Positions 5,368 through 27,021 of a stretch of DNA of 29,370 nt are shown here, in pieces. The notes beneath the pieces were generated by a model. That model did no database searches, was not told the origin of the DNA, and was given only the letters and a program-made list of their open reading frames with translations. The DNA is taken from NCBI GenBank assembly GCA_036940085.1, contig JALLBK010000716.1:1-29370 (forward strand), written 5' to 3'. Source of the DNA: Discostella pseudostelligera. Its lineage: Eukaryota; Bacillariophyta; Thalassiosirophyceae; Thalassiosirales; Thalassiosiraceae. Made by a program: the position numbers and the translations under genes. How positions within the stretch are numbered: the first letter of the stretch is position 1; each line of letters opens with the position of its first letter.

Positions 5368-8300
5368 TCATGTTCTGCTGTGATAGGATTCAGCAATGTC
5401 GTCTGCGATGCATTTCGCATCCTCGCATATTGTTCGCAATGGCAAAAATCGATCCGAGCTGCCAAATCCACATTTGTACAATCCATTCAATCTATCCTCG
5501 CGTTCGATTACACATTCCTCAACGTATCCGGTTGCGAGAATAACCATGTCAACCTTTACTCTAGAATTAGCGGGGCATGCGCCGCTTCCAACCAATGTTG
5601 GTTGGTCATCGAACTGAACAACGTTATCGTTTGTAACATTCATAATTGGACCATGACCCACTAGAGATCCGGATTGAAATCCCGAAGCAAGCCATCCATA
5701 TTTGTCAATTACGGGAACCTTCCCCCCAATTCTGCTCCAATGTTGTAGATGTAATGGAAATGCCGAGTAGCATGCTCTACTTCCGGGAAGAGCCCACCAA
5801 AGAAAATTTACTATCATATCCTGAAGAGTAGATGGCAATAGTCGTATGAGGTACCCCATGGTGTCCACGCGTAAGAATTTGATTCGCCTCGGGAAGACTG
5901 GTGGTACTGTTCGGGTAGCAATATGAATCGTTGGATTGTTTGTGATGTTGTTGCAACCAATGCAATTTTTGTGACACTGTTGCAAGATGACATTGACGAG
6001 GTCTCCTGCTGAATTTCCGAATCCAACAATGCAAAGCTTGCCGTTCTGGGCTGCTTGAACCGCTTGCGACCAAATTGCATCGTCGCATAGTTCAGCACTA
6101 TGAACGTGTGGTATTGCACTGGATTTGAGCTTCTGTGCAATAACGTCGCTCGTATGTTGTTTAGGAATCCGATGCTTTCCAGATGCGACGACGACTGCCC
6201 ATGCGGCCACAACATCATCCGCACCATATTTGACAATGTAAGGACGATTTTGATCGGGCCCTCGAACTATTGATGTTACCTTTGCCCCTCGCCGTATGTT
6301 GATTGCATATCGATGAACGTACTGCTTGAGATATCGCTGATACTCTTCGGCTGTCATATAATCATTGGGGTATTCCTTGTCACTAATGCGCAACCCAGGC
6401 AAAGTGCACCACTTCTTTTGTGTTGTAATTTCCAACCCAGAAAAGTGCTGTCCCCATGAGCCGAACAAATCAGGATTCATCTCCGCTTCCAGCACGATGT
6501 GAGGAACTTGCTTTTGGCTCAGATACGCAGCCACAGATAGACCGCTTGGTCCACAGCCTACTATTATCACTGGCGGCTTGTCTTTGGCAAGACTTCCAAC
6601 ATATGATTCAGAAACAGGTTCAACATAGGGCACCACAAAACCAAGCTTTTGCGCATCAACAAGCCAACTATCCATTTCACTCGGATTAACCGGGCCCATC
6701 TCATCAATGCGTAAAATATCGGGTTGTTCATTCAATCGGTGTGCGGCGACAAATCCAGCGGCATGACAAGCAAATATTTCATGTTCCATGAGCTTATTGG
6801 CGAACAGTCGAGGTTTATCCAGATGAGATAGATCCATATGTAGCGTCCCTGCTTCGATTACTCGTAAATCTCGACGACCCTTCAGCGGATGCGGAACCGA
6901 AAATACAATGGCCACTGCTCCATGCGGAATCACCTCTGAAACTTCTGCATCGTACTTCCCCACAATCCAGTGGCGACAATAGGCGGCGCCCTCTGAAAGA
7001 GTTGATGTAGATGCGAACCCATTCAGCTCAAAGTACTTCCGCCTTCCTGGATCCGTGCTATGGCAGAGTATATCGTAGCCATAACGATCACGCAACGCAC
7101 GAGCAACGGCCCAACCAACCTTTGAGCTCGCACCGGTCAAGAATAGCTTTGTCTTACGGTTTCTGAAACACCGATATATCGTCTCAACCACTGCCGCGGC
7201 CGTAAGATGATTGCCGTGAATGATGGAAAGCTTCCTGTTTGGTCCTAATGCTCGGCCAACGCCCCATCCGCCTCCGTTGATGCTCTGAGAAGTATATTAC
7301 AAAGATAGATGCAAAAAATGTGAGTGGCATGCGTCTGATAAATTCAATTCATCTCTGCATTTACTCGCTCACCTCTGCCTTATTCAATGCTCCAAGACAT
7401 AGCACCCTCACCCCTGTCCTTTCCGCGTGGCGTGCACACGCCTCTATATTCTCCTTGACTTGATGTGGGTGTGTGACAAAGTGCCTGCCGAAGTGTGGAG
7501 CAACCCAGTTCTGAATCCGCAACTGACCGTAGCGATTGTCGTCGCCGAGGAAATAGTCTGTGTTGCCCCAGTTGCAGATGTACCAGCCAAAAATGAAATG
7601 TATTGGCCACAGTGGTAGTGCCCAGAATGGAGCCTGCCATCGTTCCTTGAGCGAGTAGGGCAAGAGCCAAAGTGCCCAGAAGTCGGATAAGAATGCTGGG
7701 TGGCCAAGAAATACGACGTCCACTCTCTCGTTGTCGCCATGGCTATTGTCATCTCTTACTAGCTGAGTGGAGTGGTTTCTCATGGTCCTTGCCGCCACCA
7801 CCGAGACAACCCAAGTAATCGCCAGCAATGATGATGATACTACCGTTATCGTGCCGAACGATGCAGAGGTTGTCAATACTCGCAATACCGCCAGCTTTGA
7901 TACGAACTCCACTATGCTCAAGCTCCTACGCACAAACTTGGGATAACGCATCGACTGTGCATATGCCTTAAAGGTGAGCAGGACACAAATCAGCATGATC
8001 GAATTCCTGCTCATGTCAATACCATAATTGTTGGACGGTGTAACTGTCGCTTGCGAAGCCATACCCAACATTACCGACAAGTCAATTATTTGAATGATAA
8101 ACCATTTTCTAATCATGGAACCGGTAGGCTGAGGAGGACGAGGTTGTGGTGTTCTGAATACTGCCCCTATCGCGTGCAACAAGCTCCAGAGAACCCAAGA
8201 ATGCATAGCAAGGTGCGTCAACATATGCCTTTGACCTCGAACCAACCCAACGATGACAGTCGACCATTTCTTATCAAAATAGCAATGTATATCAATGCTT

Positions 8301-9820
8301 CTGATTGCAGTAGTCGTCATCATTGGAAGAGCCTTCAATGGAACTTGCCCTAGTCCAAGCATGAAGAAAGCTGACAACACAGCAACAGCCATGCTTAGCC
8401 TGACAGCTCCGTCAACGGCTACGGAACCTCCCGTCGTGCTCGTACACCCCATTTTACTGGAGGCCGCGTTGCCATTAGATATGTTGTCGTTGGGTTGAAG
8501 CAGTCGTCGGACAATGAACTCGTCATCCACAATGTACACACTGGAGCAATTCTTGTCTGCTTCAATCCCAGTGCTGCTGCTAGTACTGCTGCTGCTACTG
8601 CTCCGACGACCACTGCCATCATCAATATCCCCATCGTCGTCATCTGCAGAAATAGAGATTGATACACCACTACAATTCGATGACGAGACACTCCTAGTCC
8701 TATCAGGAGCACAATCGTCCTTCATTGCACCAATGCCACAATTCTCACTATTCTGTCGATGCGAATAATCATCCTGATCATCTTCTACCCCATCCATTGT
8801 CATCGTCGACTTCATTGTTGTTGCTTTACTTGTCTTCGTCAATGATTGCCACCACATCACCATAATACTCGCGGTACTGCATCGAAATAACTGATTCAAT
8901 GCTGCATGTATCACCCAGATGATAAATAGGATGTGCATCCTCATTACCATTGTCGAGTAGTAGGATGATGTAGTACATGTTTCATTTTCAACTTCTTCTG
9001 TAAGCATCGATGATGTTGACAACAATGATGTGGTGTACGAGGACGAGGAGAATACTGCCAACAAATCTCTCACGATGCAATAATGAATAAACGTATCTGA
9101 TCCTTGCAACAATAGTCGGAATACCGATAATAATACCTCATACATGTCATGGATATAAAAATCATCAATGACCAATGTCATTATCCCCAAGGGGGAGGAA
9201 GAAAATTTGGATGCATCGCGTCGCACACCTCGACTTTTGTAGGTGTGGTATAGTAGTGAGTAGAGTATGAGATAGTGTGTCATGGAGAAGTTATATAAGT
9301 TGTTGCTGCTGTTGGTGGTGGTGGCGGTGGTGGTGACATACATTGATGATGAATCTGATATGGACGATGATGTTGTTGATGTGGGTGATGGCAGCATCAA
9401 AAACGGCAGACATAAAAACATACCCAACGACTCTCTAGTCCAATACGCACTTAGTGTCCCAGCAATCACCCAATGTTTCTTCGATTTTAGTAATGCAATT
9501 CCATATCGACGATCGAGGTGTTGCAATAGTGGGTTGGCCAGGACGTTCATGTGTTGTAGATACACCCAATATTCGTGTAGGAAGAGTGTTAGTAGTAATA
9601 GTGATGGGGGGAAGATGGCGGAAGATTGATCATGATTAGGATGAGTGGATGTGATATCGTCGCTCATGCAGGAGATGGAGGAAGACGCCGAAAAAGAGGA
9701 GTAGATGCTGCCGATATGATCTTCTATCGTCCACACCGTACCAAAGTGCACGACGACGCCGAACATGGTCGTTAAGAGCGCCCTGACGACGGGGTCGATA
9801 TCGCGCACCATTGACGACAT
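5368..9820 (-). CDS. CER1/CER3-like (WAX2) protein fused to YUCCA/FMO-type flavin monooxygenase
   Basis: Two exons: 9820-7373 and 7284-5368, with an 88-nt intron (GTGAGC...TTCTCAG, phase 0), giving about 1454 residues. Near the end of exon 1 is the family block VDVVFLGHPAFLSD, then QLRIQNWVAPHFG and GVRVLCLGALNKAE. Exon 2 continues the same fold across the junction with RKLSIIHGNHLTAAAVVE and FLTGASSKVGWAVARAL, then TLHMDLSHLDKPR and CHAAGFVAAHRL. These match the order of the WAX2/CER1 C-terminal domain. From about residue 1050 a flavin monooxygenase begins: GCGPSGLSVAAYL (FAD site, near nt 6540), GSWGQHFSGL, EYPNDYMTAEEYQRYLKQY, GFGNSAGDL (NADPH site, near nt 6020) and VILATGY near nt 5535. 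The N-terminal ~700 residues are membrane-rich and low-complexity; I do not find the three His boxes of the fatty-acid-hydroxylase superfamily. Known CER1/CER3 proteins act in very-long-chain aldehyde and alkane formation; the role of this fusion is unknown. Confidence 0.85.
7285..7372 (-). other. Intron joining the two halves of the CER1-FMO gene
   Basis: The donor is GTGAGC after a GAG codon ending at 7373. The acceptor is TTCTCAG before AGC at 7284. It is phase 0 and 88 nt long. Without removal, exon 1 reads into a TAA at 7361-7363. With removal, the CER1-family homology runs on without a break on both sides of the junction. Confidence 0.88.
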
Positions 9821-9968
9821 TATTTGCGCGTGCGATATCGGGAATTTGTGTACGTATACGACGGATCACCTGGTGATGCTTTGAGTGGATCTAGCTGAGG
9901 GCCATCCGCATCATAATATTATTTATTAGGAGTATTTGAGAGTAGAGCAGTATTATGGTGGAGGATCG

Positions 9969-9989: not shown

Positions 9990-10051
9990 TGCTTGTTTTT
10001 GAGCCGATGCTGATGACGCAGCCGCACACCCCTATAAGAAGGGGAAATACC

Positions 10052-10107
10052 GACGGACAGGCACCTTCTATGAATTGAACAAAATGCTACGTAACCTTCT
10101 GTCCGTC
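10052..10107. promoter_or_regulatory. GACGGACAG dyad element, copy 1
   Basis: The left arm GACGGACAG (10052-10060) and right arm CTGTCCGTC (10099-10107) are perfect 9-nt inverted repeats around a 38-nt spacer. AATT lies at offset 22-25 from the left end. A similar element occurs in the other two divergent promoters of the window. The function is inferred only from this recurrence. Confidence 0.7.
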
Positions 10108-10154
10108 AAATATCGCTTCTGGAAGTGTTGTGAGATTAAGATTCGCTCAGTTCT

Positions 10155-10241
10155 CTTCCCGCCATTTTCGCAAGCACTACTCTCTTCCCGCCATTTTCGC
10201 CAAATTGCCAAATGTTCGCCAATATTCTTCCCGCCATTTTC
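10155..10241. promoter_or_regulatory. Cluster of three E2F-like sites upstream of Misato/DML1
   Basis: CTTCCCGCCATTTTC occurs three times, starting at 10155, 10184 and 10227. The first two extend identically to CTTCCCGCCATTTTCGC. On the other strand the core reads GGCGGGAA, the classic E2F/DP half-site. The cluster ends about 80 bp before the chosen ATG at 10323. Confidence 0.6.
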
Positions 10242-10322
10242 ATTCTCCACATCTTCTATTGTGCTATGTATTGCTATGCACTTCGCCATAAACGTAAGTA
10301 CATCAAAAGCAAGTCGTCCACC

Positions 10323-13300
10323 ATGACATCCGACGGCAATAATGGCAATGGCGGCGGAGGAGGCGAGATAGTACACATCTCCCTCGGATCTACTGCCAAT
10401 TACATCACATCACACTTCTTGAATCTGCAGGGGCTGGCTGCGACACCTTCTTCATCATCATCATCATCACGCGATTATGACAACTGCTACGGGCAAGACC
10501 AGCGTGATCGGGAGAGTTCGCTGTGTGATCCTTCCATCACACATTGCACCGCATCCTCCACATCGTCATCATCATCATCATCTTCCAATAATCGAATGTA
10601 TGTCCCCCGAACACTCATTGTAGATGGTCGAGATTCATTTGGAACATCGTGGGGGGGATTAGGTTCGCAGCGGGACGTGCTCATTTCGTCAAACCATCAA
10701 CATCCTAATCATACGTCGTTACAACATGCGCATCCATCGAATCATACTAATGTTGCTAACACCAATTCCGCGTGGGATGGGGCAGTTTCACTATTTGATC
10801 CTTCGCTATCATATTTTGGCGAGAAGAATGATACAAATACTACTACCAATGAAGGTGATGATCGACGATTGCCACCAAGACAACAAGCTAACCAACGACA
10901 GCAGCAGCAGCAACATGACAAAGACGACCCATTACACAAATTCCATGAAGCTGCCTCTCTCGTGGGACTATCATCACAACATTCTCGCTTTCGTGTCACT
11001 TCTTCTTCTTCTTCGGCAGCTGCAGTCTCGTATTCATCGTACAATGAAAATTATGACAAGGATGACGACGAGGAGGAAGAGGAGGAAGAAATGGATGACT
11101 ACGATCGCGAGCGACAACAACGTCAACTAGCCAAACTACAGCATCAAACTCGAGAGAAGGAAAAGGAATGGAAGGCTTGTATGGAGTCCTCATGGGAGGA
11201 GGCATTTTATGGTGGTGGAATATTATCCTCGTCAGATATGGCCACATCTACCAAGGAGGGACACTACAGTGATTCGACATCATCGGGCAAAAAGGTTGAC
11301 GTTACGAATGATCTTTCAAACGATGGTACTCATATTACCAACGCAATGAAGGCGATGTCAACAACAACAGCCAGAAATGAACGGGAAATTCAATGGCACG
11401 ATTATTGGATGCCACCACGACCACGCGAATCGGACTATCAAGTGCCTCTTCCATTTGATTCAATGTCGACATCCTCATCGTCGTCGTTGTTGTGGCCCAC
11501 ATCGTACAATAGGGGATACAATCCCATATCATCGAGTGGTGGCGAAGGAGGAGGAGGAGGAGGTGGTGGAGGCAATGGCAATGATGGTTGCATTACCAAC
11601 TCATGGCGGGAGCACGTCCTATCAGAAAAACTGCGGAGAGTGTTGGAAGCATCGGATATTGTCAAGGGGTGCAATGTCTTCGTCGATGGTGGTGGCGCAA
11701 GCCCTTCATTTGCAGGCGGTCCATCCTCCTCGAATGCTATCGTAGCCGGGGGAGGGTTTCACGCTGGATTGGCAGCATCCCTCCTTGAGGAACTGTCTGA
11801 AGAATGTCGCTCTGCTGGAAGATGGGCGGTGATGGTCGATCCACCCTTGTATCCTAGTAGTACTACCTTCGGTGATGGAAGTAATGAAAGCACAGGTTGC
11901 GATCATCAGGCAAATCGATTTCGCCAACGAGTGAATGCTGGCCTGGCATTGCATGGCCTGTCGACGAATGCTGATGCATTTTTGCCAGTGTCGATCGATG
12001 ATGCGCATCGCGCTCTGTATCATGACAATGATGGTGATCATGGACGACAATCTTCGCCAAATCGCGTGCTGTTTGAGGGAAGCGCGGCAATCTCGCTTGC
12101 GCTGGAGGCGTCGACTCTATTCTACCGTCTTCGTCGTACTCAGCAAAACACCTCTTCCGTTGGTCGAATGGGTTCCGGTGGTGGGAGTGGCGGCGCAACA
12201 CGTCGTCGTAGCCGAATTGGGATCCAATCTGGATATTATCAGGGATATGGTGGTAGCAGCAACCGCTACGAGGAATGCGACAATGAACCGTATGCCACGT
12301 CGCCATCGATGACGTATCATGAGTTCCTAGCATGTCTACGCCCCTCGTCAGATAGGCGACGGTCGGTTTTGGAGTTGGATGCGTTGCTTCATCCGATATC
12401 GTATCCATTTGCTGCTGGGGGTGGGGGTGGATCCGTATCATCGTTACTTTCAGGAACTAGTGGTAATGCATTGCCCCCTTCGTTACTTGCTTCATTGACA
12501 TCATCTGGAATTATAGGAAATACCAATGCCATGGGAGAATTGCATAGACGAATGATGAGGGGGACAAATGTGGAACTCATGATGTTGGAGCAACGGGGTC
12601 GGCAGTATCGGTCGTCACGTGGAAGATCCTCTACTATGCCAACAAAGCCAGGAGAATGGTTGGATGATATTTCTACCAAAACATTAGAGGGTGGTGGATT
12701 GCTCTCCTCGCTCTCTGGCAACTCTACTCCTTTCGGCAGGCGATCAGATCATCGTCACTTTGCTTTATCGACATCCCTGCGTCCGGCAGACTCTGATTCC
12801 CGCTCTTTCTCATCTGGAATAAATACCATCCCTGGTGGTGGTAGTGATTGCGTTGTATCTTCATTCCTCCGTCCGATAATGGAAAGCATGGGATCTAACT
12901 ATCGTCCTGAAGTGAGTTCGGGTTTAGTTGTAAAGGATTCAGTCGTTGAGTTGACTGAAGTGGATTCATATTGGCGGTCAATCTTTTCGGATAGACGTTC
13001 GTCACACGGTGATAGTAGTATGGCAACAACATCTCGAATAACGCCAAGAGAACGAGCATCGCTCACTCCACAATTATCGGTGCTTGGAAATTCCACCCGT
13101 TCGTACCCGAGGCTCAAGTCAATCTCCGATGGAATAATCGATTCGTTGCAATCGCGATGCAATATGGGCTATTTGTCTCGTGATGTCATGTCTGGTCTCA
13201 TTCCAGAAAAGGATGACTGTGAGGAGGCATTGGAATACTGTCGTGAATTGGTAGATGTCTACGAACCTCCGATGGGAAGCGGGCTAGTATTAGGAGAAAA

Positions 13301-13346
13301 TGAGAATGATGACATGAATGCATACTTCGACGAAAGTGATGATTAG
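10323..13346 (+). CDS. Misato/DML1-like tubulin-fold protein
   Basis: This is a single-exon gene of 1007 residues from the ATG at 10323. It opens with EIVHISLGSTANYITSHFLNLQ, matching the tubulin-like N-terminal segment of Misato/DML1 proteins. YVPRTLIVDGRDSFGTSWGG, the second family block, follows after a serine-rich insert. A conserved C-terminal part includes WREHVLSEKLRRVLEASDIVKGCNVFVDGG, GFHAGLAASLLEELSEE and AGRWAVMVDPP. DML1/Misato proteins are linked to mitochondrial distribution in yeast and to chromosome segregation in flies, with a degenerate tubulin/FtsZ-like core. The usual length is about 450-570 residues, so nearly half here is low-complexity insert (poly-Ser, poly-Gln, an Asp/Glu run near nt 11060, poly-Gly near nt 11545). 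It converges on the ERCC6L-like gene with only 64 bp between stops. Upstream lie three E2F-like sites and the dyad. The ATG at 10212 would add 37 hydrophobic residues; I consider this less likely. Confidence 0.82.
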   Translation: MTSDGNNGNGGGGGEIVHISLGSTANYITSHFLNLQGLAATPSSSSSSSRDYDNCYGQDQRDRESSLCDPSITHCTASSTSSSSSSSSNNRMYVPRTLIVDGRDSFGTSWGGLGSQRDVLISSNHQHPNHTSLQHAHPSNHTNVANTNSAWDGAVSLFDPSLSYFGEKNDTNTTTNEGDDRRLPPRQQANQRQQQQQHDKDDPLHKFHEAASLVGLSSQHSRFRVTSSSSSAAAVSYSSYNENYDKDDDEEEEEEEMDDYDRERQQRQLAKLQHQTREKEKEWKACMESSWEEAFYGGGILSSSDMATSTKEGHYSDSTSSGKKVDVTNDLSNDGTHITNAMKAMSTTTARNEREIQWHDYWMPPRPRESDYQVPLPFDSMSTSSSSSLLWPTSYNRGYNPISSSGGEGGGGGGGGGNGNDGCITNSWREHVLSEKLRRVLEASDIVKGCNVFVDGGGASPSFAGGPSSSNAIVAGGGFHAGLAASLLEELSEECRSAGRWAVMVDPPLYPSSTTFGDGSNESTGCDHQANRFRQRVNAGLALHGLSTNADAFLPVSIDDAHRALYHDNDGDHGRQSSPNRVLFEGSAAISLALEASTLFYRLRRTQQNTSSVGRMGSGGGSGGATRRRSRIGIQSGYYQGYGGSSNRYEECDNEPYATSPSMTYHEFLACLRPSSDRRRSVLELDALLHPISYPFAAGGGGGSVSSLLSGTSGNALPPSLLASLTSSGIIGNTNAMGELHRRMMRGTNVELMMLEQRGRQYRSSRGRSSTMPTKPGEWLDDISTKTLEGGGLLSSLSGNSTPFGRRSDHRHFALSTSLRPADSDSRSFSSGINTIPGGGSDCVVSSFLRPIMESMGSNYRPEVSSGLVVKDSVVELTEVDSYWRSIFSDRRSSHGDSSMATTSRITPRERASLTPQLSVLGNSTRSYPRLKSISDGIIDSLQSRCNMGYLSRDVMSGLIPEKDDCEEALEYCRELVDVYEPPMGSGLVLGENENDDMNAYFDESDD

Positions 13347-13410: not shown

Positions 13411-16400
13411 TCATAGCCATCCTAGGACACCTGCGACTTGAGCAACTTTGGCGTGGATTGTTAGTTTGTCCTCGCCCTTGATCAAAGCAAAATCTCCTTC
13501 GATCGAAGATAGCAGAACATCCATTGCATCGCCATACTTTTGATTCGCAATCAATGACTCAGCATCGCGCAAAGTATCCTCGACATGACTACTTTGGTGG
13601 GCCTGTTTTGTTTGAGCTCGTTTTGCCTTCTTTGCATCCTCTATTTTCTGTTTTGTCCTATTCAAGCCCCCGCCAAGCGGCTTCAAGTCAAGGATGGCTT
13701 CCGGCGACGAATCATCAACCGTAAGGTCAATATGAGCATTCAATGGAGTAACCCCCTTCCCCATGCCCGCCTTTTGATATGGCAATCGCGAAAAAGGAGC
13801 CCCGTCGTTGTCCACATCGATTTCAATAGTAGAATACAAGACGTCATGACTTGCAACACCGATGACCATGGGGTGCTTCGTCAAGAAGGATGGCTTTCCA
13901 GACGATTCCGCGGCATTGTTGTCCGACTTTTTGTGAAATTTCTCCAGTGTCGCTGAGACTCCATCCGGCGCAAGCTTGAATAGATCCTTCAATTCGGAGT
14001 AATCAAAATACCTTGCAGTAGCCCCGGCGTTAGACAAGACTACCCGTTTAATTCCATCTTTATGCACTTGCTTTTCGTACATCTTCTCTTCGACTGTGCC
14101 TGCAGATATGAACCTATAGACAGTGACGTCTCTAGTTTGGCCCTGATGAAATAGATAGTAGATGAAGACGTAAATGAGAGGACGATAAGAAAACTAAAAA
14201 TCGCACACCTCTGATTGCGCTTACAATTCGATAGCATCTGTCTACAGCCTGCGAGTCTTCTGCTGGATTCCACGATGGATCGTAAATGATGGCCCTATCA
14301 GCACCTGTGTTTCAAAGGATGTTGCAATATGCTTGTGAGCTCTCGGCAATTTATGACACGGTGATAGGTGGGGGTTTTGGAACCAACCACATAGTCTTAC
14401 CAGTCAATGTAATGCCAACTCCAGCAGCTTTCGTCGAAAGAAGCATGATATCGATTCCTGAGTTACTATCGTTGAAATGATCCACGGATTTTTGACGTGA
14501 CTTCTCAGCGGTGGTCCCGTCAATTCGAAGGTGGGTGATCGATCCAGGCAATGCCCGTTCCATAATATCCAACATCTTCGTGCTCTGTGAAAATACTAGC
14601 GCCCTGTGACCGGAACGTTTTAATCGATGAATTAGATCAATCAGCACCTGCAGCTTGGTACTATCTTTGACTAACAGATCGACATCATCATATTCTTTGT
14701 ACCTGCCAGAGGCGTCTTTGACAAGTGACGGATGACCACATAACATTTTCAACCACGACACGGCGGCGAGAGGAGTAGAAGATCCGCCATCAAATACTTG
14801 ATGCTCCGCGAAATGTTCATACATGCGTCGTTGTTTCGCGGACAATCGAGTGAAAACAACCAATTCCTTCTTCTTGGGCATGGTATCCTCAAACTCAGTC
14901 TCCTTCAGCCGTTGAAGGAAGTACGGTTGGATTACCTGCTGGAGCTTTCCATTCATCTCGGCAGCCTTCTTTATTGCCCAATCGGATGCATTCCGTTGTC
15001 TACCATCTTCGATTGGATAACCATATTGATTGAGAAATGTTTTGATTGATCCAAGAAGTTGGGATGATGTCGCCCAATCGAACAGAGCATGGAGTTCTCG
15101 CATATTGTTTTGTATTGGAGTACCGGTGAGGAGTAATCGACGAGTCTTCTCCGAGCGTGCCAGTATTCTAATATCTTGGGAGGTTTTCGTTTTGCGATTC
15201 TTGCAGATGTGTCCCTCGTCGAGGATGACGTAACACCAGTGATGTTCCGGGAATGTCGTGGCCATTGAGCTTAGATCGGTTATGTGATTTGACACTAGTC
15301 CCTGCAAAAGATTGATAATATTAAGAAGAGAATAAGCAATATGAGATTTCGTTCGTTCATCAAAATATTTCTACCATGGAAGCAAGCCAAATTCATTTGC
15401 AACTCACATAGGTAGTAACAATAAGTCTCGGAGCATCCGCACTACAACAAAACGCTTCCGTAAATATCCTCTTCCGCTTCTCACTTTTCATATCACTCGT
15501 CACGGCGTACACCGTAGCCTTGGACACACACATATTCTTTACGATGAGATTCGCTTCCCTCTCCCAGCTTCGTACTACCGACTTTGGGCAAACCACAATA
15601 GCATTATATATAGTTCTGGCCCGCATGAGTGATCCAAGATAGGCCAATGTGCTGAGTGTCTTACCCATGCCCATATCATCAGCTAAGATGCCCCCCTTGA
15701 TTTTATTCCGATGTAAACTTGCCATCCACTGCACACCAATGCGTTGATGTTGGAATAATTTGTTGTACAGTGGAAGTGGAAGGCGTACCTTGGGCCATTT
15801 GACGTTATTGGAGTGGGTAGTGTCGGAGGGTAAAGTGAGATCGCGTCTGGTGTCGTCGAGTTCCCAACATCCGCAGCTGTCAAAGCAGGTGACACTCTTT
15901 TCGTCGGTGCTACTACTACTGCTGCTGCTGCTGTTGACATTCTCTGCATCATCAAATGTTGCATCTGCATTCCTACCCTTGTCATCTTCGTTGACATACT
16001 CTGAGTCATCATCGGCGTAATCGTCGTCATTGTCATTGCTATCAACGTCGTCGTCGTCATCATCATTCAAGTTTAGGCCAGAGAAGTTTAAGATATCATC
16101 CTCCTCCTCTTCTTTCTCCGCAATCGGTTCTTCAACTCCCGATGACTTGAGCGTCGGTTCATCCCTCGTGTTGTTGCTATCGCTGCTGTTGTTGTTGTTG
16201 TTGTTGTTGTTGTGATCTAAGTTGCTGACTGTGCTCTCATCATCATCATCATCATCATCCATGATAATTCGCCGTCGTAGTTTCATCGAATCCACACTAA
16301 AATCATCATCACTATCATCACTTAAACCACCACCAGCTGCACCACCAGCAGCGGTGGAGAATGATGGTCCATAAATCATTTCCATAACCTCTTCAATTTC

Positions 16401-16907
16401 AGTATCTAGCGTTTGTCCAATGCGTTGGATGGTATCGCGAATGTATTGCGAATTGGGTGGTGGTGGACTTTTCATCATATTATTTCTGATGTTGTTGTTG
16501 TTGGGTGTTGATGATGCATCATCGAGCGGCTGCATAAGATTTGTCGAGGATGTGGACATGGGAGTGTTGTTGTTGTTGTTGTTGTTGTTCATTGTGTAGT
16601 TGGAGTTGAGAGTTGCTGGGTGGCGTCGTCGTCGAGTCGAGGATGTAGGCGGTGGTGGCGGTGACACCATGAGCAGATCGGTATCGTCGTAGATTGCCAA
16701 TGACGTCGAGAGGAGTTCGCCAATCTCGTCATCATCAACAGATGCAGCATCAGCAGCATGGTTGTCGCCACCGTCGTCCGTGGTGTCGGCACGTTGATCC
16801 ATGACCATGGCATCGCTAATTGATCTTCCACTCATCTTCGCTCCTTCTCCCGCCGCCACGACGCCTTCTGCCACGGCATTGATTCTGTTCTCCTTGTCAT
16901 CCATCAT
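13411..16907 (-). CDS. SNF2-family ATPase, ERCC6L/PICH-like
   Basis: Four exons: 16907-15408, 15301-14401, 14304-14225 and 14142-13411, with introns of 106, 96 and 82 nt (donors GTGAGT, GTAAGA, GTAAGC; acceptors TTGCAG, CACAG, ATCAG), giving about 1070 residues. Exon 1 codes for an acidic, Asn/Asp/Ser-repeat N-terminus, then HQRIGVQWM and Walker [11 protein letters not shown]. Exon 2 has the DEGH box ([10 protein letters not shown]), [20 protein letters not shown] and motif V GVGITLTG. The 80-nt exon 3 gives [26 protein letters not shown], and exon 4 starts [11 protein letters not shown], restoring the arginine-finger motif R-I-G-Q. Downstream, [12 protein letters not shown] and [15 protein letters not shown] resemble the post-helicase region of ERCC6L (PICH), a translocase on anaphase bridges. 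The closest alternative is CSB/ERCC6. The promoter has E2F-like sites. Confidence 0.88.
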
Positions 16908-17132
16908 TGTAAAGAGGGCAGCCTACAATAAATAGTGTATGGCAACGATCCATGCGATGGGCTCGACGTGGACAGCAATGGCAATGATGAATGATGAAGA
17001 TGAATGCTTGTGCTGGTGCCGGTTTGATCGCGATGTTGTTGTGTTGTATGCTGAATGCTGCTGTTTTTGGTTCGACGGCGCGGCAACAACAGCAACGGTC
17101 TGATTCGTCAGTTCTACCAATTCCTCTGCAGC

Positions 17133-17180
17133 CTCCCGCCAAAATTCTCATGTCTCCCGCCAAAATTATCTTCCCGCCAA
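17133..17180. promoter_or_regulatory. Cluster of three E2F-like sites upstream of the ERCC6L-like gene
   Basis: CTCCCGCCAAAATT occurs at 17133 and 17154, and CTTCCCGCCAA at 17170. The reverse strand reads TTTTGGCGGGAG, very close to the E2F consensus TTTTGGCGGGAA. The sites lie about 226-273 bp upstream of the minus-strand start at 16907. Confidence 0.65.
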
Positions 17181-17216
17181 TATATTATTGCCACGTGTGC
17201 TCGCTAAGTAGTGATT

Positions 17217-17274
17217 GACGGACAGACGTACTTATCGAATTCTCTTCGATGAATTATTAAGTCGCCTGTCCGTC
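17217..17274. promoter_or_regulatory. GACGGACAG dyad element, copy 2
   Basis: Perfect 9-nt inverted arms lie at 17217-17225 and 17266-17274, around a 40-nt spacer. AATT lies at offset 22-25 as in the other two copies. The spacer ends AGTCGC, matching AGTCGT in copy 3. Confidence 0.7.
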
Positions 17275-17568
17275 GTTAATGCCCCGTTTCTGAGGTGGGC
17301 GGGGCGCGCGGGCTTATCGACCATCGTCACACAAGGACACGTCACAACAACATGTCACATAGAAGTACAACCACGATAGACCACAATACATGATTCATGA
17401 CCACTGCCGAGTATTGATGTCTTACCCATCGATCCAGGAGCATACACATCTGCATCATCACTGTCTTCATTACCTCTCTCTCTCTCTCTTGCTCAACTGG
17501 CCTGCTTCACGAGTCATATCACATCATTCATCATTATCGTACCCCGCCGACCAATTATTTCTCTTTGA

Positions 17569-19450
17569 ATGTCGAACGACCGTCGATTGCGCCATCGCGC
17601 TTCAACACACGCTTCGCATTATTTCAATAATAACGGATCTTCGTCATCGTCGTCATCTGTGCCAACTTCACATCCACCACAGCGTCGGAAATTAGTGCAG
17701 TTTGGCACTATGGATATGGAGGATGCCTATAGAAATAATGTGAGTGGCGATGCGAAGCATCATCCACCATCACATCATCATGACAATAAACATAATGCAC
17801 AAAATAAATCATTGGAAGATGACATGGATGAAGAGCATGGATGTGATCAATACGAAATGACATCACCGTTGCTAGGTAGTAGTAATGATGGAGGAGGAAG
17901 AGGAGGAGGGGGCAGTGCTATTATTCAACATGATGCAAATGGAAATACGATGAAAAAACACAATCGAATATCATCTACAACAACAAAAGCGTCATTATCC
18001 TCCGCTACCGCTGCTATTGATCATGGTGGAGCAGACCATCACCACCACGACAAGAATACTACGCTCTCAGCAACATCATTATCCTCAAATCATGCAAAAT
18101 TATTGCACGATTCCACCTCCAAAACCGACATACGTTCCCAAACACTCTACCTCAAAACAGCCTTTTGGTTAACCGCCTGGTACTCCACATCCTTGGCAAC
18201 ATTATTCTTGAATAAGATTATATTATCACGTCCGAATTCTTCAGTGCATGTTCTTGGAATGTGTCAAATGACTACGGCTGCCGTGCTTGGTGGATGGAGT
18301 ACCTATGGTGGATTGGATTATATGACTAGAAAGGGACGAGGGTTGTATGATTGTCTGATGGAGGTTTATCGATGTAGAATAGTTAGGGGTGGTGGTACTA
18401 CTTCGTCGGTCACCAAAAATCGAAGTGCAGACAATATTGATGGATCATTATTAACAAATTCATCCAAATCGAATACGAGCATGCTACCTTCAAAATCCAA
18501 ATCAAACAATAATACCGTTGCTGCTAGTGTAGTGTGCGGCAATGTCGGNGAGCATGCTACCTTCAAAATCCAAATCAAACAATAATACCGTTGCTGCTAG
18601 TGTAGTGTGCGGCAATGTCGGTGGGGGCGCTGGTAATTTAGGAGGAGCAGGCGGCATCAGCTTTCATTTTGCACGTGACATGAGCATCGTCGGCATATTA
18701 AGGGGTGTCACAGTCCTCCTTGGCCTAGTCGCACTCGAACATGTCCCAGTCTCCTTCGTCGAAACAATCAAAGCCACTGCACCGGCATTTACGGTATTGT
18801 TTGCCCGGCTGATATTGCAAGAACGGACCGCCCCAACGGTTATGCTAACATTGGTACCGGTTGTGGGCGGTTTGATATTGTGCAGTGCATCGAAATTACG
18901 ATTTGATACTATTGGATTTGTTGCGGCCGTAATGAACAATTGTGCGGACTGTGTACAGAATGTCATGTCGAAGCGTATGTTGGCGCATGTGAAACCGACC
19001 CAGTTGCAATTCTACACAAGTGTGGCGGCATTGGTACTTCAAACTCCGTTGATTCTCCGGGATGTTTCGGGGTTGGTAGGGAATTGGGCACAACATGCCA
19101 CAGACGAGGATATTACAATTCACGCAGAAGAACGACACCTCGATACTACCGAAGATGATGGAGAATTTATGCCATCATCCTACTATCATCAAAATGAATG
19201 GTCGCTTACGAAACTCTTAATTGTCGATGCGATATTCTATCATTTACAATCTGTCTCGGCGTACTGCACAATGGGATGTATGAATCCTGTATCTCAATCT
19301 GTAGCGAATACTTTGAAGAGGGCACTGCTGGTCTGGGCATCGATATTGTACTTTGGCAACCCGGTAACAAGTAGCGGAATTGTGGGTATACTGATGGTCG
19401 TAGCTGGGGTCTTCTTGTATAATCATGTCCGAAGAATTCATCAATCTTAA
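17569..19450 (+). CDS. SLC35E2-like transporter of the triose-phosphate/nucleotide-sugar family (frame broken by assembly duplication)
   Basis: The gene starts at ATG 17569. Its frame runs to 18548, where an N and an exact 72-bp repeat shift it by one base; the second frame then runs to the stop at 19450. Counting the repeat once gives one continuous protein of about 602 residues. Residues 1-190 are low-complexity and His/Ser/Gly-rich. Membrane segments start near nt 18154 (YLKTAFWLTAWYSTSLATLFLNKIIL). After an insert, the family blocks are VSFVETIKATAPAFTVLFARL, NNCADCVQNVMSKRML, LQFYTSVAALVLQTP, YHLQSVSAYCTMG and PVSQSVANTLKRALLVWASI. Their order and wording fit SLC35E2-type members of the drug/metabolite transporter superfamily. 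The substrate cannot be read from the sequence. The TPT-domain assignment is firm and the E2 subgroup is likely. Confidence 0.88.
18477..18621. repeat. Exact 72-bp direct duplication flanking a single N (probable assembly artefact)
   Basis: Positions 18477-18548 and 18550-18621 are identical, separated only by N at 18549. The 73-base offset moves the reading frame by exactly one. Collapsing one copy with the N restores the transporter frame. This is what two overlapping contigs joined with a placeholder gap look like. Confidence 0.92.
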
Positions 19451-19565: not shown

Positions 19566-22542
19566 TCACAGTACGACAGCTTCATCCTTCTCCAGCAAAG
19601 GAAATCGCGCCGTCGCACCCTCCACAGCAACAAACTCTTCGGCCCTGCCTCCTAGATGAGTTTTCAAGAACAATTCCACTCGGCCCTGAAAGTCAATCCG
19701 ATTCTCCGGCCTCGCAAATCCGTGTCCTTCGTCCGGATACAAGACATATTCCACTGGGATAGCCTTCTCCTTCATGCGGAATGCAATTTGATCAGCCTCG
19801 GCCTGCTTCACTCTAGGGTCATTTGCACCCTGACCAATCAGCAACGGAGCTTTTATGAAATCGACGTGAAAAAGAGGACTGATTTTCTTGTTGAATTCCT
19901 CGTCGTTGTCAACATCTCCAATCTTTTTTAGCATTCCATTCCGCAGCGGGGCCCAGTAGGCTGGAATAGAATCGAGAAGTGTTTTTATGTTTGAGGGCCC
20001 AACAATGTCAACCCCACATTTGCTGCGCAATACGAGACAAATCGCGGATCATTTGATTCAATTAGAAATGAACAGTCAACGAATCTATTTCACACATGAT
20101 GTACTCACTACAAGTCTGGGGTAAATGTCAAGCCAGCCAGACAGGCATAACCTCCATAACTCCCACCATAGATGCATATCTTGTCCTTATCGGCAATACC
20201 CTCCTCTATGGCCCATTTGACAGCAGAAGTGAGATCGTGCTGCATGTCACCTACTCCCCATTGACCATCGCCCTTGTGCAAAAAAGTCTTGCCATAGCCA
20301 GTCGACCCACGAAAGTTCACCTGCAATGTAGCGTAGCCTCGGTTGGCAAACCACTGAGCTCTTGCATTGAAGCCCCAATAATCGCGGGCCCATGGACCTT
20401 GGGGTGTTTCAAGTAACACAAGCATGATCGAGAAATGAACAAACTTCCGGTTAGTGACGATAATTCAAGGAGTGAGTGGCTAGTACTTAGATACTAACCT
20501 CCATGGACAAGTAGAATCAATGGGCTTGGCCCTTCCGTAACAGCTCGTGTGAGATATGCCACCAGTTCCAGTCCATCATGTGCGGGAATTCTCCTGCCAT
20601 TGTCATGGTGATGGTAAGGAAACGTATAAAGAAAGGACGATGACATAAGACTAGGCAAATGAAATCAATTCTGACATCAGACATCAAGTACACTTACACA
20701 TCCTCCATATGTGCAAACTTAAACTTCAACAACTTTGGATTCGATACAAAGAGCGGCACCACAGTCCGTGTTGGCTTATCATACAAAACATACGACGATG
20801 GCCCGTCCGACCGAAAGTACGACACTACCCATTTGGTCTCATCGAGCGATCGACTTGGAACGCCAATTTCACAATTGGGTTCTGGGGCATACGTTTTGAG
20901 AAAGGCATAATCGCGTTCAAGTTCATTGTCGAAGAATATGCGTTCCTTCGATTTGGGATAGAGAGAGATGAGAAGATGAACGAGCATGATAGATGGATGT
21001 GAGAAGATGGCAATGACCATGAATTTGACGATGCATACATTGCACTTACCGTTCGTGCATAATTGTAGGTCAATGCTCTTATCTCCTTCGTCTCCTTATC
21101 CAACGTCACGCCTCCCACATTGCACTTGTCATTATTATACAATTCCTCCAATGTTTCTCCTGTAGTTACATCCACCTTGAGCAATGCCGTCGTTTCCCGT
21201 CCAAGGGACGAGGTTAGATACGCTGTCTTGCCATCGGGTAAAAAGTCGAGTAATCCACCTTCTTCACCATAGGGGAAATGGAAGACGTCTTTCCATTGGA
21301 AATCGTCGTGGGAACCCATGACAACATCAGATGTTTGGCGTATACGTATGGTTGTGGAACTGTCGTCGGGGTTGCGTGCCGTCTATGTGCGGAAAGAGTG
21401 AATGGAAAGACAACCACCAATTCAAGGTGAGAAAAAATGAGCAGCAAACTCACATCAACGAATGCATATCACAATGATGTGTGCGGATTCATCATCCGTC
21501 AAGTGCATATGCTCCTCAATCAACTCTACTACTTCATCTTCCCCACCATGCATCGTCAGCTCTCATACAAAGCAAATAAATAATGATCAAAAACAAAACG
21601 TACCGCAGCACGAATTTCAAACGATTTCTCTTCCACCTTCCACCCCAATACATCTCCTGGATTGATCGTATCCAAATATTTTTCCCCGCTTTTGTAAAAT
21701 ATACGATACATGTCAAAGATTTTCGAGTTGCGTTCATTGGTCCCGACGAGGATTTGGTTGGGGTGGTATCGATTGGTAATTATGTTTTGTGCCTTGACGT
21801 TGGATCCGGGTGTTAGATCTCGTACTGGATATGGATGTGTAGTTGTTGATGATGCAGAGTCGATATTGGATTGCGAGTTCTCATCAGTATTATCAGTGAT
21901 GGAGTTGGCAAAAGTTGTGACAATATTACTAATATCCACCGCAAACAAATGAAAATTCTCATCCCCATCACTATCATTCATGTATAGTATAGTTTCATTA
22001 TCGTAGGCCCAGGCGTAAGATCGTATGGCACGTTTTGGTTCATTTGTGATCATGATATCCCCTCCCTTCTTCTCGTTGTCGTTATTGTAATTGTCGTTGT
22101 TGACGTTGCTGCCCCTTGCTGCTGCTGCTGCTGCTGCTGTTGTTGATGTTATGACTGATGCAAGATTGCGTATCCAAATGTTCATTACACCATTAGGCGA
22201 TGGTGCCAAGTAGGCCAATTTATTGCCATCAGGTGATAATAGTGGCGAGGAATATTCAGGATTGCCAAAGAGGATGTTTCGTGGTATGAGTTCTTCGGAT
22301 GTGGTGGAGGTGGATGCAGGAGTGGCGGTGGCGGAGAGGGAACTGTCGAATCGGCATCTGTTGCTGTTGCTGCTACGAGCACCTTCACCAACATGACAAA
22401 GATCACGGTGATCCATGGCCGATGAAAATACCGTCTTTGTCAGTGGAAGATGAGGAGGCGATGACGTGATGAATGCCAATGCTGGAAGGCGGAGAAACAG
22501 CGGCAGGAAAAAGATCTTGGAAGGTGTCGACATCATTATCAT
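19566..22542 (-). CDS. S9 (prolyl oligopeptidase family) serine peptidase with probable plastid presequence
   Basis: Six exons: 22542-21604, 21382-21050, 20945-20698, 20650-20499, 20397-20109 and 20022-19566. The introns are 221, 104, 47, 101 and 86 nt. The total is about 805 residues from the first ATG (22542); the frame upstream has no ATG. The N-terminus is a signal peptide ending [11 protein letters not shown], the Ala-Phe junction of diatom plastid presequences. A beta-propeller follows ([26 protein letters not shown]). The alpha/beta-hydrolase domain starts at [12 protein letters not shown], formed across the exon 4/5 junction. The nucleophile is in GGSYGGYA (Ser codon 20161-20159), the Asp in QGANDPRV (19820-19818) and the His in DEGHGF (19724-19722), so the triad is complete. 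The closest types are S9C acylaminoacyl-peptidase-like or dipeptidyl aminopeptidase-like enzymes that trim short peptides. Plastid location is inferred. Confidence 0.9.
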
Positions 22543-22819
22543 TATGTCATGAAGAAGAGAGGCGGCAGAGTTTTGAAGATGAGAGAGCTTCACCGACACC
22601 GCATATGGTGGACGTTTTCTTAGTTAATGCGGCCGACGAGACGAAGGAGATAGAGAGGTGTCTATTAGAGAATGGAGGATGGAGTAGACACTAGTAGTTC
22701 TAGTAGTAGTCGGCGGCAGCCATGGTCCCCATCATCATCTGTCCCCTGTCCCCATCGTCATCGTCGGCGTCCTCCGACGCTTCGTCGTGGCTTGCTTCTG
22801 CAGGTAAATACGCTTGTAT

Positions 22820-23236: not shown

Positions 23237-23288
23237 CTCCCGCCAAAATATTCTGCTGCCGGTTGGCTCGAAATCTCTCCCGCCAAAA
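23237..23288. promoter_or_regulatory. Two E2F-like sites upstream of the RAD54B-like gene
   Basis: CTCCCGCCAAAA occurs at 23237 and 23277; the reverse strand is TTTTGGCGGGAG. The sites are about 233-284 bp upstream of the ATG at 23521. Confidence 0.62.
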
Positions 23289-23330
23289 GGGTTGGCACTT
23301 TGCCACCACCCCTCTAAAACAGCCACTTGT

Positions 23331-23387
23331 GACGGACAGGCTCATGCATAAAATTCTCGTAAGATACTACGCAGTCGTCTGTTTGTC
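23331..23387. promoter_or_regulatory. GACGGACAG dyad element, copy 3
   Basis: The left arm GACGGACAG is at 23331-23339. The right arm CTGTTTGTC is at 23379-23387, with two substitutions from the perfect complement. The spacer is 39 nt, with AATT at offset 22-25. CTACG lies 12 nt before the right arm, as in copy 1. The element is 134-190 bp upstream of the RAD54B-like ATG. Confidence 0.65.
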
Positions 23388-23520
23388 AAACTTTCTTCTA
23401 TCAGCGGCTGTTCATGATGGCCGACAGCTGAGGCTGAGGGCTGAGGGCCGAGGGCCGAAGCCGCCGCGCGCCGCCCCCACCGCCGTAATATTGTAGCCCT
23501 ACCTACCATCGACATCGACA

Positions 23521-24661
23521 ATGACGCCTCCTCCGCTACCATCCTCCTCCTCTGCGGCAGCACCACCCCCGCCACCCACACGACGATATTCCGTCCTGTA
23601 CTACAAACGATCCTTCAGCTCCTCATCTACAAATAAAAATCGGGGCAACACCGCCCGATCCGATGGAATACTGACCATATCACCCCCTCCATCGTGTGTT
23701 GTCAAATTGACTTCCTCCGATGATAATGGCAATGTTGACATTGAAGAGGAGAGTGATGATGATGAATGCAATGATGATACTAACAATTCAGACGATGATG
23801 ACGAGGGTGGCACTTGTGGCGCTTTTCGTGGTAGTACCAAGAAGCAAAAGTGGAATAAATTCAAAAACAAACGACAGCAGACGGCACAGAAGAAGAAACT
23901 CAAACAGCAGAAGCTACGACAAAACTCCATTGTTTGGAGTGGAGTCAATGCTGATTTGAGTCGTAGGGCCTACTCTGACTTCCAACCTGACGCTGCTGGC
24001 ACTAGTGAAATGAGGGGTGGGATGTTAACAACAATGACAATGATACGTGACGATGATACACTACTATTGAATGGCCAATGGGCATGTGAGATCGTTTGCC
24101 TTCTGGATAATCACTCGGATGCAGTTGCTACTACCTATGCTGCATCTAGTCTTGGTGGACGTAGTAATGGATTATTGAACAATGGGTCGACAATGATGAA
24201 CAAGCAAGAGTCGTCTTCGTCCAATAGCCTTGTGGGAGCAAATGGTACCGGTAGCACAACACTGGCAATGCCACCAGCACGTGCACCATTGTCGTCTATG
24301 CGTGCCAATGTCATTCAACCACTTCGATCCAAGAAGACTGGGTTGGGAACTGGGTTGACTCTTCCGCCTAAGAGGGTAGTAGGGCTTGGTGCAGCACCTT
24401 CCCATGCATCGGTGTGCCAATCTGTAACTACACCTGCATTACCAGCAGCGGCTTCGTCTGCGGCAGGAGTTGTAAGAGTTGATATGGGGGGCACCAAGAG
24501 ACAGAAGGATGCTGCCGACGGAAAGCATGACCAATCCGAAAGCGACGATAGCGATCATCGCGACGAGAATGAAACGAATGCAAAAACTTCCTCGTACAAA
24601 ATACCACCGTCACTTCTCCGTTCTACCAGTAGTACTGTCGCCAATTGCCCACGAACAGTTC

Positions 24662-24713
<52 letters not shown>

Positions 24714-24714
24714 N

Positions 24715-24750
<36 letters not shown>

Positions 24751-27021
24751 TGGGATCGTCATTGTCTTCTTCACATTTTCCAACCTCGACTACTATCAGA
24801 GGCAACATACGAACTGATGCCAGCAGTAAAAGTAGCAGCAATATCACTGACTTTCCAGGAGCAAAGGGTGAGCGAATCAATGTCCCCGCCTCACTACGCA
24901 ATGTGTTGCGTCCCCATCAACGAGAGGGGATTGCATTCTTGTGGAATTGTGTTACGGGTGTCAATGAAGGGTTGAAGAATGCGTACTACAGTGCAGCTGT
25001 TGGCTCTGCGAGTGGGAGCGTCGGTGGTGATGAGAACGAGGATGAAGAGGACGATGGTGATGTTGGGAGGAGATCAACCGTTACGTTGCCAGCGGGTGGT
25101 GTTGTGCCTCGAGGTGCGGTATTGGCTGATGAGATGGGTCTTGGCAAGGTGAGCTGGCTATGTCAAAAATTGAGAGGGTACGCTTCACTTTTCTACAATA
25201 TTGATCACCTGACATTTCCCAAATCGTCATCTCTTCCCTTTTCGCAGACGCTCATGACAATCGCCACAATCTTCGCATACCATCGCCTCCATCGCGATCG
25301 ACGCTTCATCGTGGTATGTCCTTCCAGTCTTGTTTCCAACTGGTCGAAGGAATTCGATAAATGGTTAGGAAAGGCATCCCAACCTAAACGCATTGTGGTA
25401 CGCAATGGTGCCGAATCGGAGGGGTTGCGTAATCTCAAGTCCTTCGTGCCATTGAAATCCAATCAGAGTGAGGTGTTGATACTGAGTTATGAGATTTTTA
25501 GGCTGCATGTCAAGGTAATCCATAAGGCAAAACAGATTGGGATATTGGTTGTGGATGAAGGACATCGGTTGAAGAATACGAGTGGAAGTCAGATACTAAC
25601 GGCGTTGAATTCCATTGACGTGGAGGCTAGGATTTTGATATCGGGCACACCCATTCAGGTACGCCTTGTTTCGACTTATTGACTTTTGTTTCAATGTTTC
25701 ACGTGCATGAAATCTCAATGCATCGCAATCTTTTTTCAATCAGAACAATCTCTCCGAGTTTTACAATGTCTCCAATTTTGCAGTTCCCGGCATCCTTGGG
25801 GAGTTGTCCAGTTTCCGACGGTTGTACGAACGTCCCATGTCACAAGCCAACCAAAAGAACGCGTCTACAGTACAAAGGGATAATGGCCGAAGACAATCGA
25901 AGGCATTGGATGCCATTACATCACAGTTCGTATTGAGAAGGACGCAGAAAGATATCCTAAAGTCTCTGCTCCCGCCGAGGACAGAGGTACTTTTGTTTTG
26001 CCGACCGACCGAACGTCAATGTGAATTGTATCAGAGCATTGCACAACGCGCTTCCAAATCGATTGGATCGATTGGCGGTATTGAAGACTGCAATAATCCG
26101 CTGATGCTGCTCACTGAACTGCGTAAGCTATGCACTCATCCGTCGTTATTGGATAACACGGATGCAGTGGCAGATGCTTCGCTCTCTGGAAAGTTGGCTG
26201 TTCTTAGCAATCTACTAGACTCGATCCGTCGCCACAACCCCATGGACAAAGTTGTCATTGTTAGCAATTTTACTTCGGCGCTGACTGTCATCGAAAGATC
26301 TATACTGCGGAAGACAGGATTGACATTTTTGCGCCTCGACGGATCGACTGACAACAAATCACGTGGCGCTCTCGTGGACGCATTCAATAATTTCTCAGTG
26401 GAACATAGCTTCGCCTTCCTCCTCAGCTCTAAGGCTGGTGGATGCGGCTTGAACTTGATCGGGGCCAATCGTCTCATCTGCGTGGATGCAGATTGGAATC
26501 CAAGTACCGATCTGCAGGCTATGGCCCGCGTCTACCGCCAGGGTCAGACTAAACCATGCTACATCTATCGCATGTTTACTACCGGCACCGTCGAGGAAGT
26601 CATCTACCAACGCCAACTTCAAAAGGGGAATCTGGCCAAGTTGGCCAATGACGGCGGGAGTAAAAAGATAGACAAAGACTCGTCAAGTTTCACGAAAGAT
26701 GAGCTGCGTGATTGCTTCACATTGAAGCGGAGTTCGAAGTGTGATACAAAGCAAAAGCTGGGTTCGAAGTGGAGCGACTATGCTGGGGATTCGACGTTGC
26801 GCTCGCATGGATGCGAGGATGAACCACTTCTTGAAATTTGCGAGGACGATGCTCTGACATTTGTTCATATTGTTGATAATGACGAGAAGCTCACGACAAC
26901 AGTAGACGGTGGTAGAAGTGACGGCGAAGTCTCGTCAGCTGATGATGATCTCTCTGAATCTGAGTCTTCGGTTCCTGGTGATGACCGGCCATCTTCCGAA
27001 GAGAAGGAGTTCCATGGATAA
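23521..27021 (+). CDS. RAD54B-like SNF2 ATPase (homologous recombination), with assembly gap in a poly-Thr tract
   Basis: Three exons: 23521-25148, 25248-25658 and 25744-27021, with introns of 99 nt (GTGAGC...TTCGCAG) and 85 nt (GTACGC...AATCAG), giving about 1100 residues. The N-terminus RRYSVLYYKR...RSDGILTI resembles the small domain before the helicase in RAD54B/Rdh54-type proteins. A serine/asp-rich linker follows. The frame breaks at N 24714 inside an ACT repeat and resumes one frame over. The helicase domain has LRPHQREGIAFLWNCVTG, LADEMGLGK|T (Walker A split by intron 1), PSSLVSNW, the DEGHRLKN box, SGTPIQ|NNLSEFY (split by intron 2), SNFAVPGILGELSSFRRLYE, FVLRRTQKDI, LLSSKAGGCGLNLIG and QAMARVYRQGQTK. 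The C-terminal FTKDELRDCFTLK is also typical. RAD54/RAD54B remodel DNA with RAD51 during recombination; RAD54B fits better than RAD54. The promoter carries E2F-like sites. Confidence 0.91.
24662..24749. repeat. ACT/CTA trinucleotide microsatellite containing an N gap
   Basis: About 17 units lie before and 11-12 after the N at 24714, all inside the RAD54B-like coding sequence and read as poly-threonine. The two sides are in different frames relative to the flanking coding sequence, so the true repeat length is unknown. Confidence 0.95.
25149..25247 (+). other. Stop-free 3n intron inside the Walker A motif of the RAD54B-like gene
   Basis: The 99-nt segment starts GTGAGC and ends TTCGCAG. It is divisible by three and has no in-frame stop, so the frame reads straight through it. 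Retention would separate GLGK from the T that completes Walker A by 33 residues. Removal gives GLGKTLMTIATIF, the normal SNF2 motif I. Confidence 0.88.

Follow-up and report, generated by a model that had tools for sequence, protein, structure and literature searches.

The window, by which I mean the whole 29,370-nt stretch of DNA analysed here, is contig C685 of an assembly of 23,041,147 bases in 963 contigs, and it holds three gaps in which two inverted arms of nine letters lie between genes transcribed away from each other. These gaps had been described as all three divergent promoters of the stretch, and among its larger open reading frames they are in fact the only head-to-head gaps. The features are listed below, with genes taken from the ORF list and a Pfam scan, arms from arm matches, cassettes from profile matches (each copy being a member of the model) and E2F-like words, as I take them to be, from word positions.

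7364 to 9865, minus strand: open reading frame left of copy 1, without a Pfam match
10027 to 10127, no strand: cassette copy 1, from CACCCCTATAAG to CTTCTGGAAGTG, placed by its outer words and a profile match at 10030-10126
10052 to 10060, plus strand: left arm of copy 1, GACGGACAG, facing the left gene
10099 to 10107, minus strand: right arm of copy 1, CTGTCCGTC, facing the right gene
10140 to 13343, plus strand: open reading frame right of copy 1, weak match to a Misato-like tubulin domain
10156 to 10235, no strand: three E2F-like TTCCCGCC words by copy 1
15396 to 16922, minus strand: open reading frame left of copy 2, SNF2-related domain
17134 to 17179, no strand: three E2F-like TCCCGCCA words by copy 2
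17205 to 17297, no strand: cassette copy 2, reversed, with a profile match at 17205-17296 on the minus strand
17217 to 17225, plus strand: left arm of copy 2
17266 to 17274, minus strand: right arm of copy 2
17569 to 19447, plus strand: open reading frames right of copy 2, triose-phosphate-transporter family
19569 to 22623, minus strand: open reading frames left of copy 3, of which the piece at 19569-19934 is of the prolyl oligopeptidase family
23238 to 23285, no strand: two E2F-like TCCCGCCA words by copy 3
23307 to 23407, no strand: cassette copy 3, profile match at 23309-23406
23331 to 23339, plus strand: left arm of copy 3
23379 to 23387, minus strand: right arm of copy 3, CTGTTTGTC, matching the arm with two changes
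23497 to 27018, plus strand: open reading frames right of copy 3, with an SNF2-related domain and a helicase C domain

Residues given as X in the translations near 18540 and 24710 suggest that two of these genes are interrupted by assembly gaps or by stretches of N.

The three dyads lie where the initial annotation had placed them, at 10052-10107, 17217-17274 and 23331-23387, and with the arms it had given; two of them match both arms perfectly, and a match of this kind did not turn up once in 100 shuffles of the window. Its element size of 56-58 bp has to be corrected, since the dyad is only the core of a whole inverted-repeat cassette of about 105 bp with CACC(C)CTAGAA-like ends. These ends have worn unevenly: copy 2 retains a right outer word (CCCCGTTTCTGAGGTG at 17282-17297) with an indistinct left outer end, and copy 3 retains a left outer word (CACCCCTCTAAAA) with a badly preserved right one. 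By the asymmetry of the family's GC and AC halves (described below), copy 2 runs opposite to copies 1 and 3. The AATT reported at offset 22-25 is found there in all three dyads when they are read on the plus strand; in family orientation copy 2 has it at 20-23, and in that orientation 12 of the 20 family copies carry AATT at 22-25. The top 30 of the 190 pairwise scores between the 20 copies include none that joins two of the window copies, which speaks against their having arisen from one another by simple tandem duplication.

Across the assembly, the exact two-arm pattern with a spacer of 36-42 nt occurs 5 times and its reversed counterpart never, and the genome scan that had been proposed for this spacing, with up to two mismatches, bears this out with 25 matches against 2 for the reversed pattern. 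The 25 matches are 24 distinct places (C899 is counted twice), and 14 of these were accepted as family because they share sequence beyond the arms, while 10 were dropped: C29, C75, C899, C914 and C946 with their flanks viewed, and C88, C92, C137, C151 and C255 judged from the match alone. Half-element, outer-part and interior-part searches added C615, C59, C90, C351, C173 and C525, giving a family of 20 copies in 23 Mb, which is few for a MITE and is a lower bound, since very worn copies escape pattern searches. C735 and C128 belong to the half-element set discussed below and are left out of the 20, as is C782; C13, C186 and C185 (one to two mismatches) and the other new three-mismatch places were judged from the match alone. 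In viral contigs the exact two-arm pattern turned up at five places (two with one and the same sequence; GC 0.54-0.69), which are taken as chance: they are unlike the cassette inside and in the 40 bases on each side.

What makes these copies a family is homology beyond the arms, since outer words and interiors are shared among the 20. When the halves are aligned, the outer word CACC(C)CTAGAA leads, in well-kept copies, into GGGGCTCTTAC and then into GACGGACAG, after which the two halves part, one continuing with GC and often with the interior GAATTCTC, the other mostly with AC. Over 84 bases C626a is 75% identical to C626b, and a BLAST-type genome search with C626a matched only itself and this neighbour; C774 and C173 share 47 identical bases from their start, with the identity beginning, save for one base, at CACCCC; and the interior TCTCGTAAGAGCCCCGTCTAC is common to C90, C173 and C537 with no more than three mismatches. 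A profile search over the window and 13 loci returned, beyond the model's own members, C446, a weak partial match to C914 (E 0.0058) and two matches at chance level (E 0.64 and 1.8). The copies are also clustered: four pairs are separated by 8 kb or less, where an equal-contig model predicts 0.11, and 0 of 20,000 simulations reached four.

Several features of the family are transposon-like. Inverted outer words stand on both sides of well-kept copies such as C774 and C90, and are worn on one side in many others, window copies 2 and 3 included. The unit of C774, 108 bp long and with inverted ends that resemble each other, lies between two copies of CCATTATTT, and removal of the unit together with one CCATTATTT leaves a regular tandem array, although this same local array, in which identical 9-mers are common, leaves the duplication more open to a chance match. 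The array itself (L018, about 9010-9185) is E2F-like with a 13-bp period (CCCGCCATTATTT) and is interrupted by the cassette. C90, at 127 bp, is flanked by two copies of ATGACGGA, and C525 has GGCCGACG on both flanks, so that exact flanking duplications of 8-9 bp are present in three of the 18 copies tested, all of them among the better preserved, and the other 15 lack one of at least 8 bases. None of that length flanks any of the three window copies, as had already been remarked. When the ends are fixed by the family word, two of the 18 copies score 9.0 and 8.0 and all 306 permuted pairings score 4.5 or less; with free ends, three of the 18 copies have at least 8 duplicated bases, and so do 9 of the 306 permuted pairings, a modest excess for the copies. 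Taken as sequence evidence, these duplications suggest transposition. C173 is a long form of 669 bp (L035, 1532-2200) that runs to an inverted GC half and contains nested inverted repeats, including repeats of ACGGGGCTCTGACGA, with no between-stops reading frame above 104 aa. A DNA search of the assembly with its interior matched only C173 itself, and no autonomous partner was found that way. The short cassettes may be internally deleted forms of a C173-like unit, with C173 a possible source.

The gene setting of the copies is less uniform than the window had led one to believe. Placement between head-to-head genes is clear for 11 of the 20 copies, in 10 gaps, and does not extend clearly to the whole family (judged from ORFs and a hexamer coding track that model neither introns nor short genes), but four copies lie at contig ends (C774, C933, C446 and C90), four are ambiguous or perhaps tandem (C84, C626b, C59 and C173), and C525 stands outside the count. 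Likewise, presence in all divergent promoters is true within the window and fails in the genome, where at least two other head-to-head gaps in the fetched loci (L016, about 7600-8250, and L021, about 9300-9420) have no profile match, which rules out an element in every divergent promoter. Pfam matches in 19 of 30 proteins near the copies are of mixed kinds (SNF2, HMG-CoA synthase, gyrase A, ERG4/24, NPL4 and an exportin-7-like protein among them), and one shared pathway for the neighbouring genes was rejected on account of this mixture. At L020 (3021-8140, contig C197), an HMG-CoA synthase gene and a gyrase A-type gene stand head-to-head across one cassette.

The E2F-like words that had been noticed close to each window dyad do lie within about 50 bp at all three. 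More widely, TTCCCGCC occurs within 150 bp of the dyad at 7 of 18 dyad loci, at 2.97 per kb (the overlapping flanks of the two C150 copies being counted twice), at 4 of 32 loci with single or clustered arm words, at 0.51 per kb, and at 0.09 per kb in other fetched sequence, coding parts included. A further word, CCACGTGG, occurs eight times within 150 bp of dyads, at 4 of 18 loci, or 1.48 per kb against 0.04 per kb in other fetched sequence.

The arm word has a life of its own outside the cassette. The assembly contains GACGGACAG 634 times and its reversed counterpart 147 times, where a third-order model built on 171 kb of fetched sequence predicts about 123 occurrences of the word, and its longer form GGTCGACGGACAGA, with at most one mismatch, has 144 matches against 2. 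In the loci viewed, non-cassette words carry this other flank (GGTCGACGGACAGA) and lack the outer words and interior of the cassette. The first 100 of the 634 places include 16 pairs of neighbours no more than 90 bp apart, 12 tandem, 4 outward (one of these, C59, being a cassette) and none inward; a search of the whole assembly gave a single exact inward pair at a spacer of 25-55 nt and five outward ones at 36-42 nt. From the same 100 places 32 loci were viewed, 12 with close pairs and 20 with single words. Two or three GACGGACAG words also cluster on one strand outside the cassette, at intervals of 20-62 bp and often in the form CCGGTCGACGGACAG, at L041, L042, L044-L046 and L048-L052 (contigs C3, C7, C28, C32, C36, C54, C55, C58, C61 and C68).

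The direction of the word rests mainly on this arrangement of pairs, because a test of coding direction downstream of CTGTCCGTC is flat unless filtered: sense outscores antisense at 11 of the 20 single sites and at 14 of the 26 cluster sites, and only with a coding signal of at least 15, a threshold picked after the scores were seen, do nine loci read sense and one antisense. Starts lie close downstream of the word in some of the viewed loci, while at least one single site (L054) falls inside a coding stretch, and the promoter placement of single words is based on few loci. From the pair arrangement, the nearby downstream starts and the E2F-like neighbours, I infer that the arm word is a directional promoter motif. 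A dimeric transcription-factor site had been suggested for the dyad; the arms look like separate copies of a directional word in excess genome-wide, and one dimer bridging both is not needed, because single and tandem words are far commoner than the dyad.

The arms have also outlasted the repeat in which they sit. In half-element searches the opposite arm is retained at 8 or more of 9 positions in 15 of 21 half-elements and perfectly in 11, and the adjoining outer repeat of the same 21 has a mean identity of 0.50 against 0.39 for shuffles. Two things weaken this comparison: the outer part, which contains gaps, was aligned without them, and the search patterns were built from copies that had originally been recognised by their two arms. 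The half-elements represent 18 copies (C59, C90 and C933 are counted twice), and the set leaves out those that needed three mismatches to be found, namely halves of C685a, C150 and C446 and, for C626a, the AC half. Such retention fits selection on the arms, which might act for the host or for movement.

The explanation that best joins the word excess, the homology beyond the arms, the outward geometry, the duplications in three of 18 copies and the retention of the arms is that a decayed, non-coding, dispersed MITE-like family of about 105 bp, of which the window elements would be old copies, has probably set a back-to-back directional promoter motif between divergent genes, with the arms kept. 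Each half of the cassette would carry one directional word, GTCTGTCCGTCGA read towards the gene, so that a cassette lying between head-to-head genes would supply one outward-facing word to each, and I propose that the dyad prefers head-to-head gaps because its palindromic form does just this. The family would have spread by transposition, a DNA-binding or core-promoter factor would read each arm beside the E2F-type sites, and the arms would have been preserved because promoters use them. The options first offered for the dyad are thereby divided, the promoter element probably applying to the arms, as a word in excess genome-wide, and the MITE probably to the dyad, as part of a dispersed inverted-repeat family. 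A bolder version, which I put forward tentatively as a possibility and would not yet expect to hold, is a mobile bidirectional promoter module, that is, a palindromic transposon with the host's directional word in each half, whose insertion between divergent genes would install a matched pair of words that selection keeps while the rest decays.

The rival accounts each remove one part of this combination. If nothing had moved and selection had built two outward sites of similar spacing in place, one could understand why outward and tandem word pairs also exist without a cassette, why 11 of the 20 copies sit between clearly head-to-head genes and why 15 of 18 copies lack a long flanking duplication; but homology that continues through outer words and interior (C626a with C626b, C774 with C173, and C90 with C173 and C537) and three exact duplications of 8-9 bp speak against such a purely regulatory origin, and I consider it unlikely. 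Conversely, the family could be a neutral, decayed MITE without host function, its arms simply the inverted ends and the 634 words mostly debris, and the repeat family, inverted ends, clustered copies and occasional duplications would agree with that, as would arms kept for movement. This I judge quite improbable, since single and clustered words have another flank (GGTCGACGGACAGA) and no cassette outer words or interior in the loci viewed, since words are tandem or outward and never inward among the close pairs of the first 100 places, and since in worn copies the arms are far better preserved than the adjoining repeat. That the two arms form an RNA hairpin or a small RNA gene is hardly credible. 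The window copies do fold somewhat better than shuffles (z of -2.69, -5.43 and -1.96), but every dyad folds like that, and in 13 aligned copies none of the nine arm pairs has changed on both sides (3 G-U and 7 unpaired among 117 cells), so compensatory changes are absent; nor does the window contain an Rfam match at gathering score or a tRNA, and the hairpin was rejected on these grounds. The preferred reading, then, is still that of a decayed MITE-like family with retained, outward-facing promoter words.

No description of the arm word or the cassette was found in the open-access literature searched; in two algal papers that contain the arm word, it stands inside a vector sequence, which I take to be Cre-bearing, and inside a qPCR primer. 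What this analysis joins is a directional word that recurs hundreds of times in one genome with a transposon-like repeat that delivers a back-to-back pair of it, and, if that is true, head-to-head gene pairs would gain symmetric promoters in one step. As to the kind of element, the hAT and Mutator superfamilies make flanking duplications of 8-9 bp, ends starting with CA fitting hAT and a duplication of 9 bp fitting Mutator. The cassettes are like them in the 8-9 bp duplications of three of the 18 copies, and like hAT in ends beginning with CA, and differ in that no transposase or autonomous copy has been linked to the family. MITEs and hAT elements are annotated in a diatom genome paper (PMC7466962). 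For the word, the nearest likeness in a stramenopile is to the strand-biased core promoter motifs INR, FPR and DPEP of oomycetes (PMC3599244), which are likewise short promoter words with an orientation bias, although the patterns published there (YCAYTYY and SAASMMS) are different and the arm word here is known from sequence rather than from start sites. For the combination of word and element, there are the Brassicaceae MITEs that carry E2F sites, mostly far from genes according to a review (PMC12595863). Those too are short non-coding inverted-repeat elements bringing a host regulatory word near genes, whereas the cassette described here carries another word, carries it in both halves and facing outward, and does so in few copies (20 counted), 11 of them in clear head-to-head gaps.
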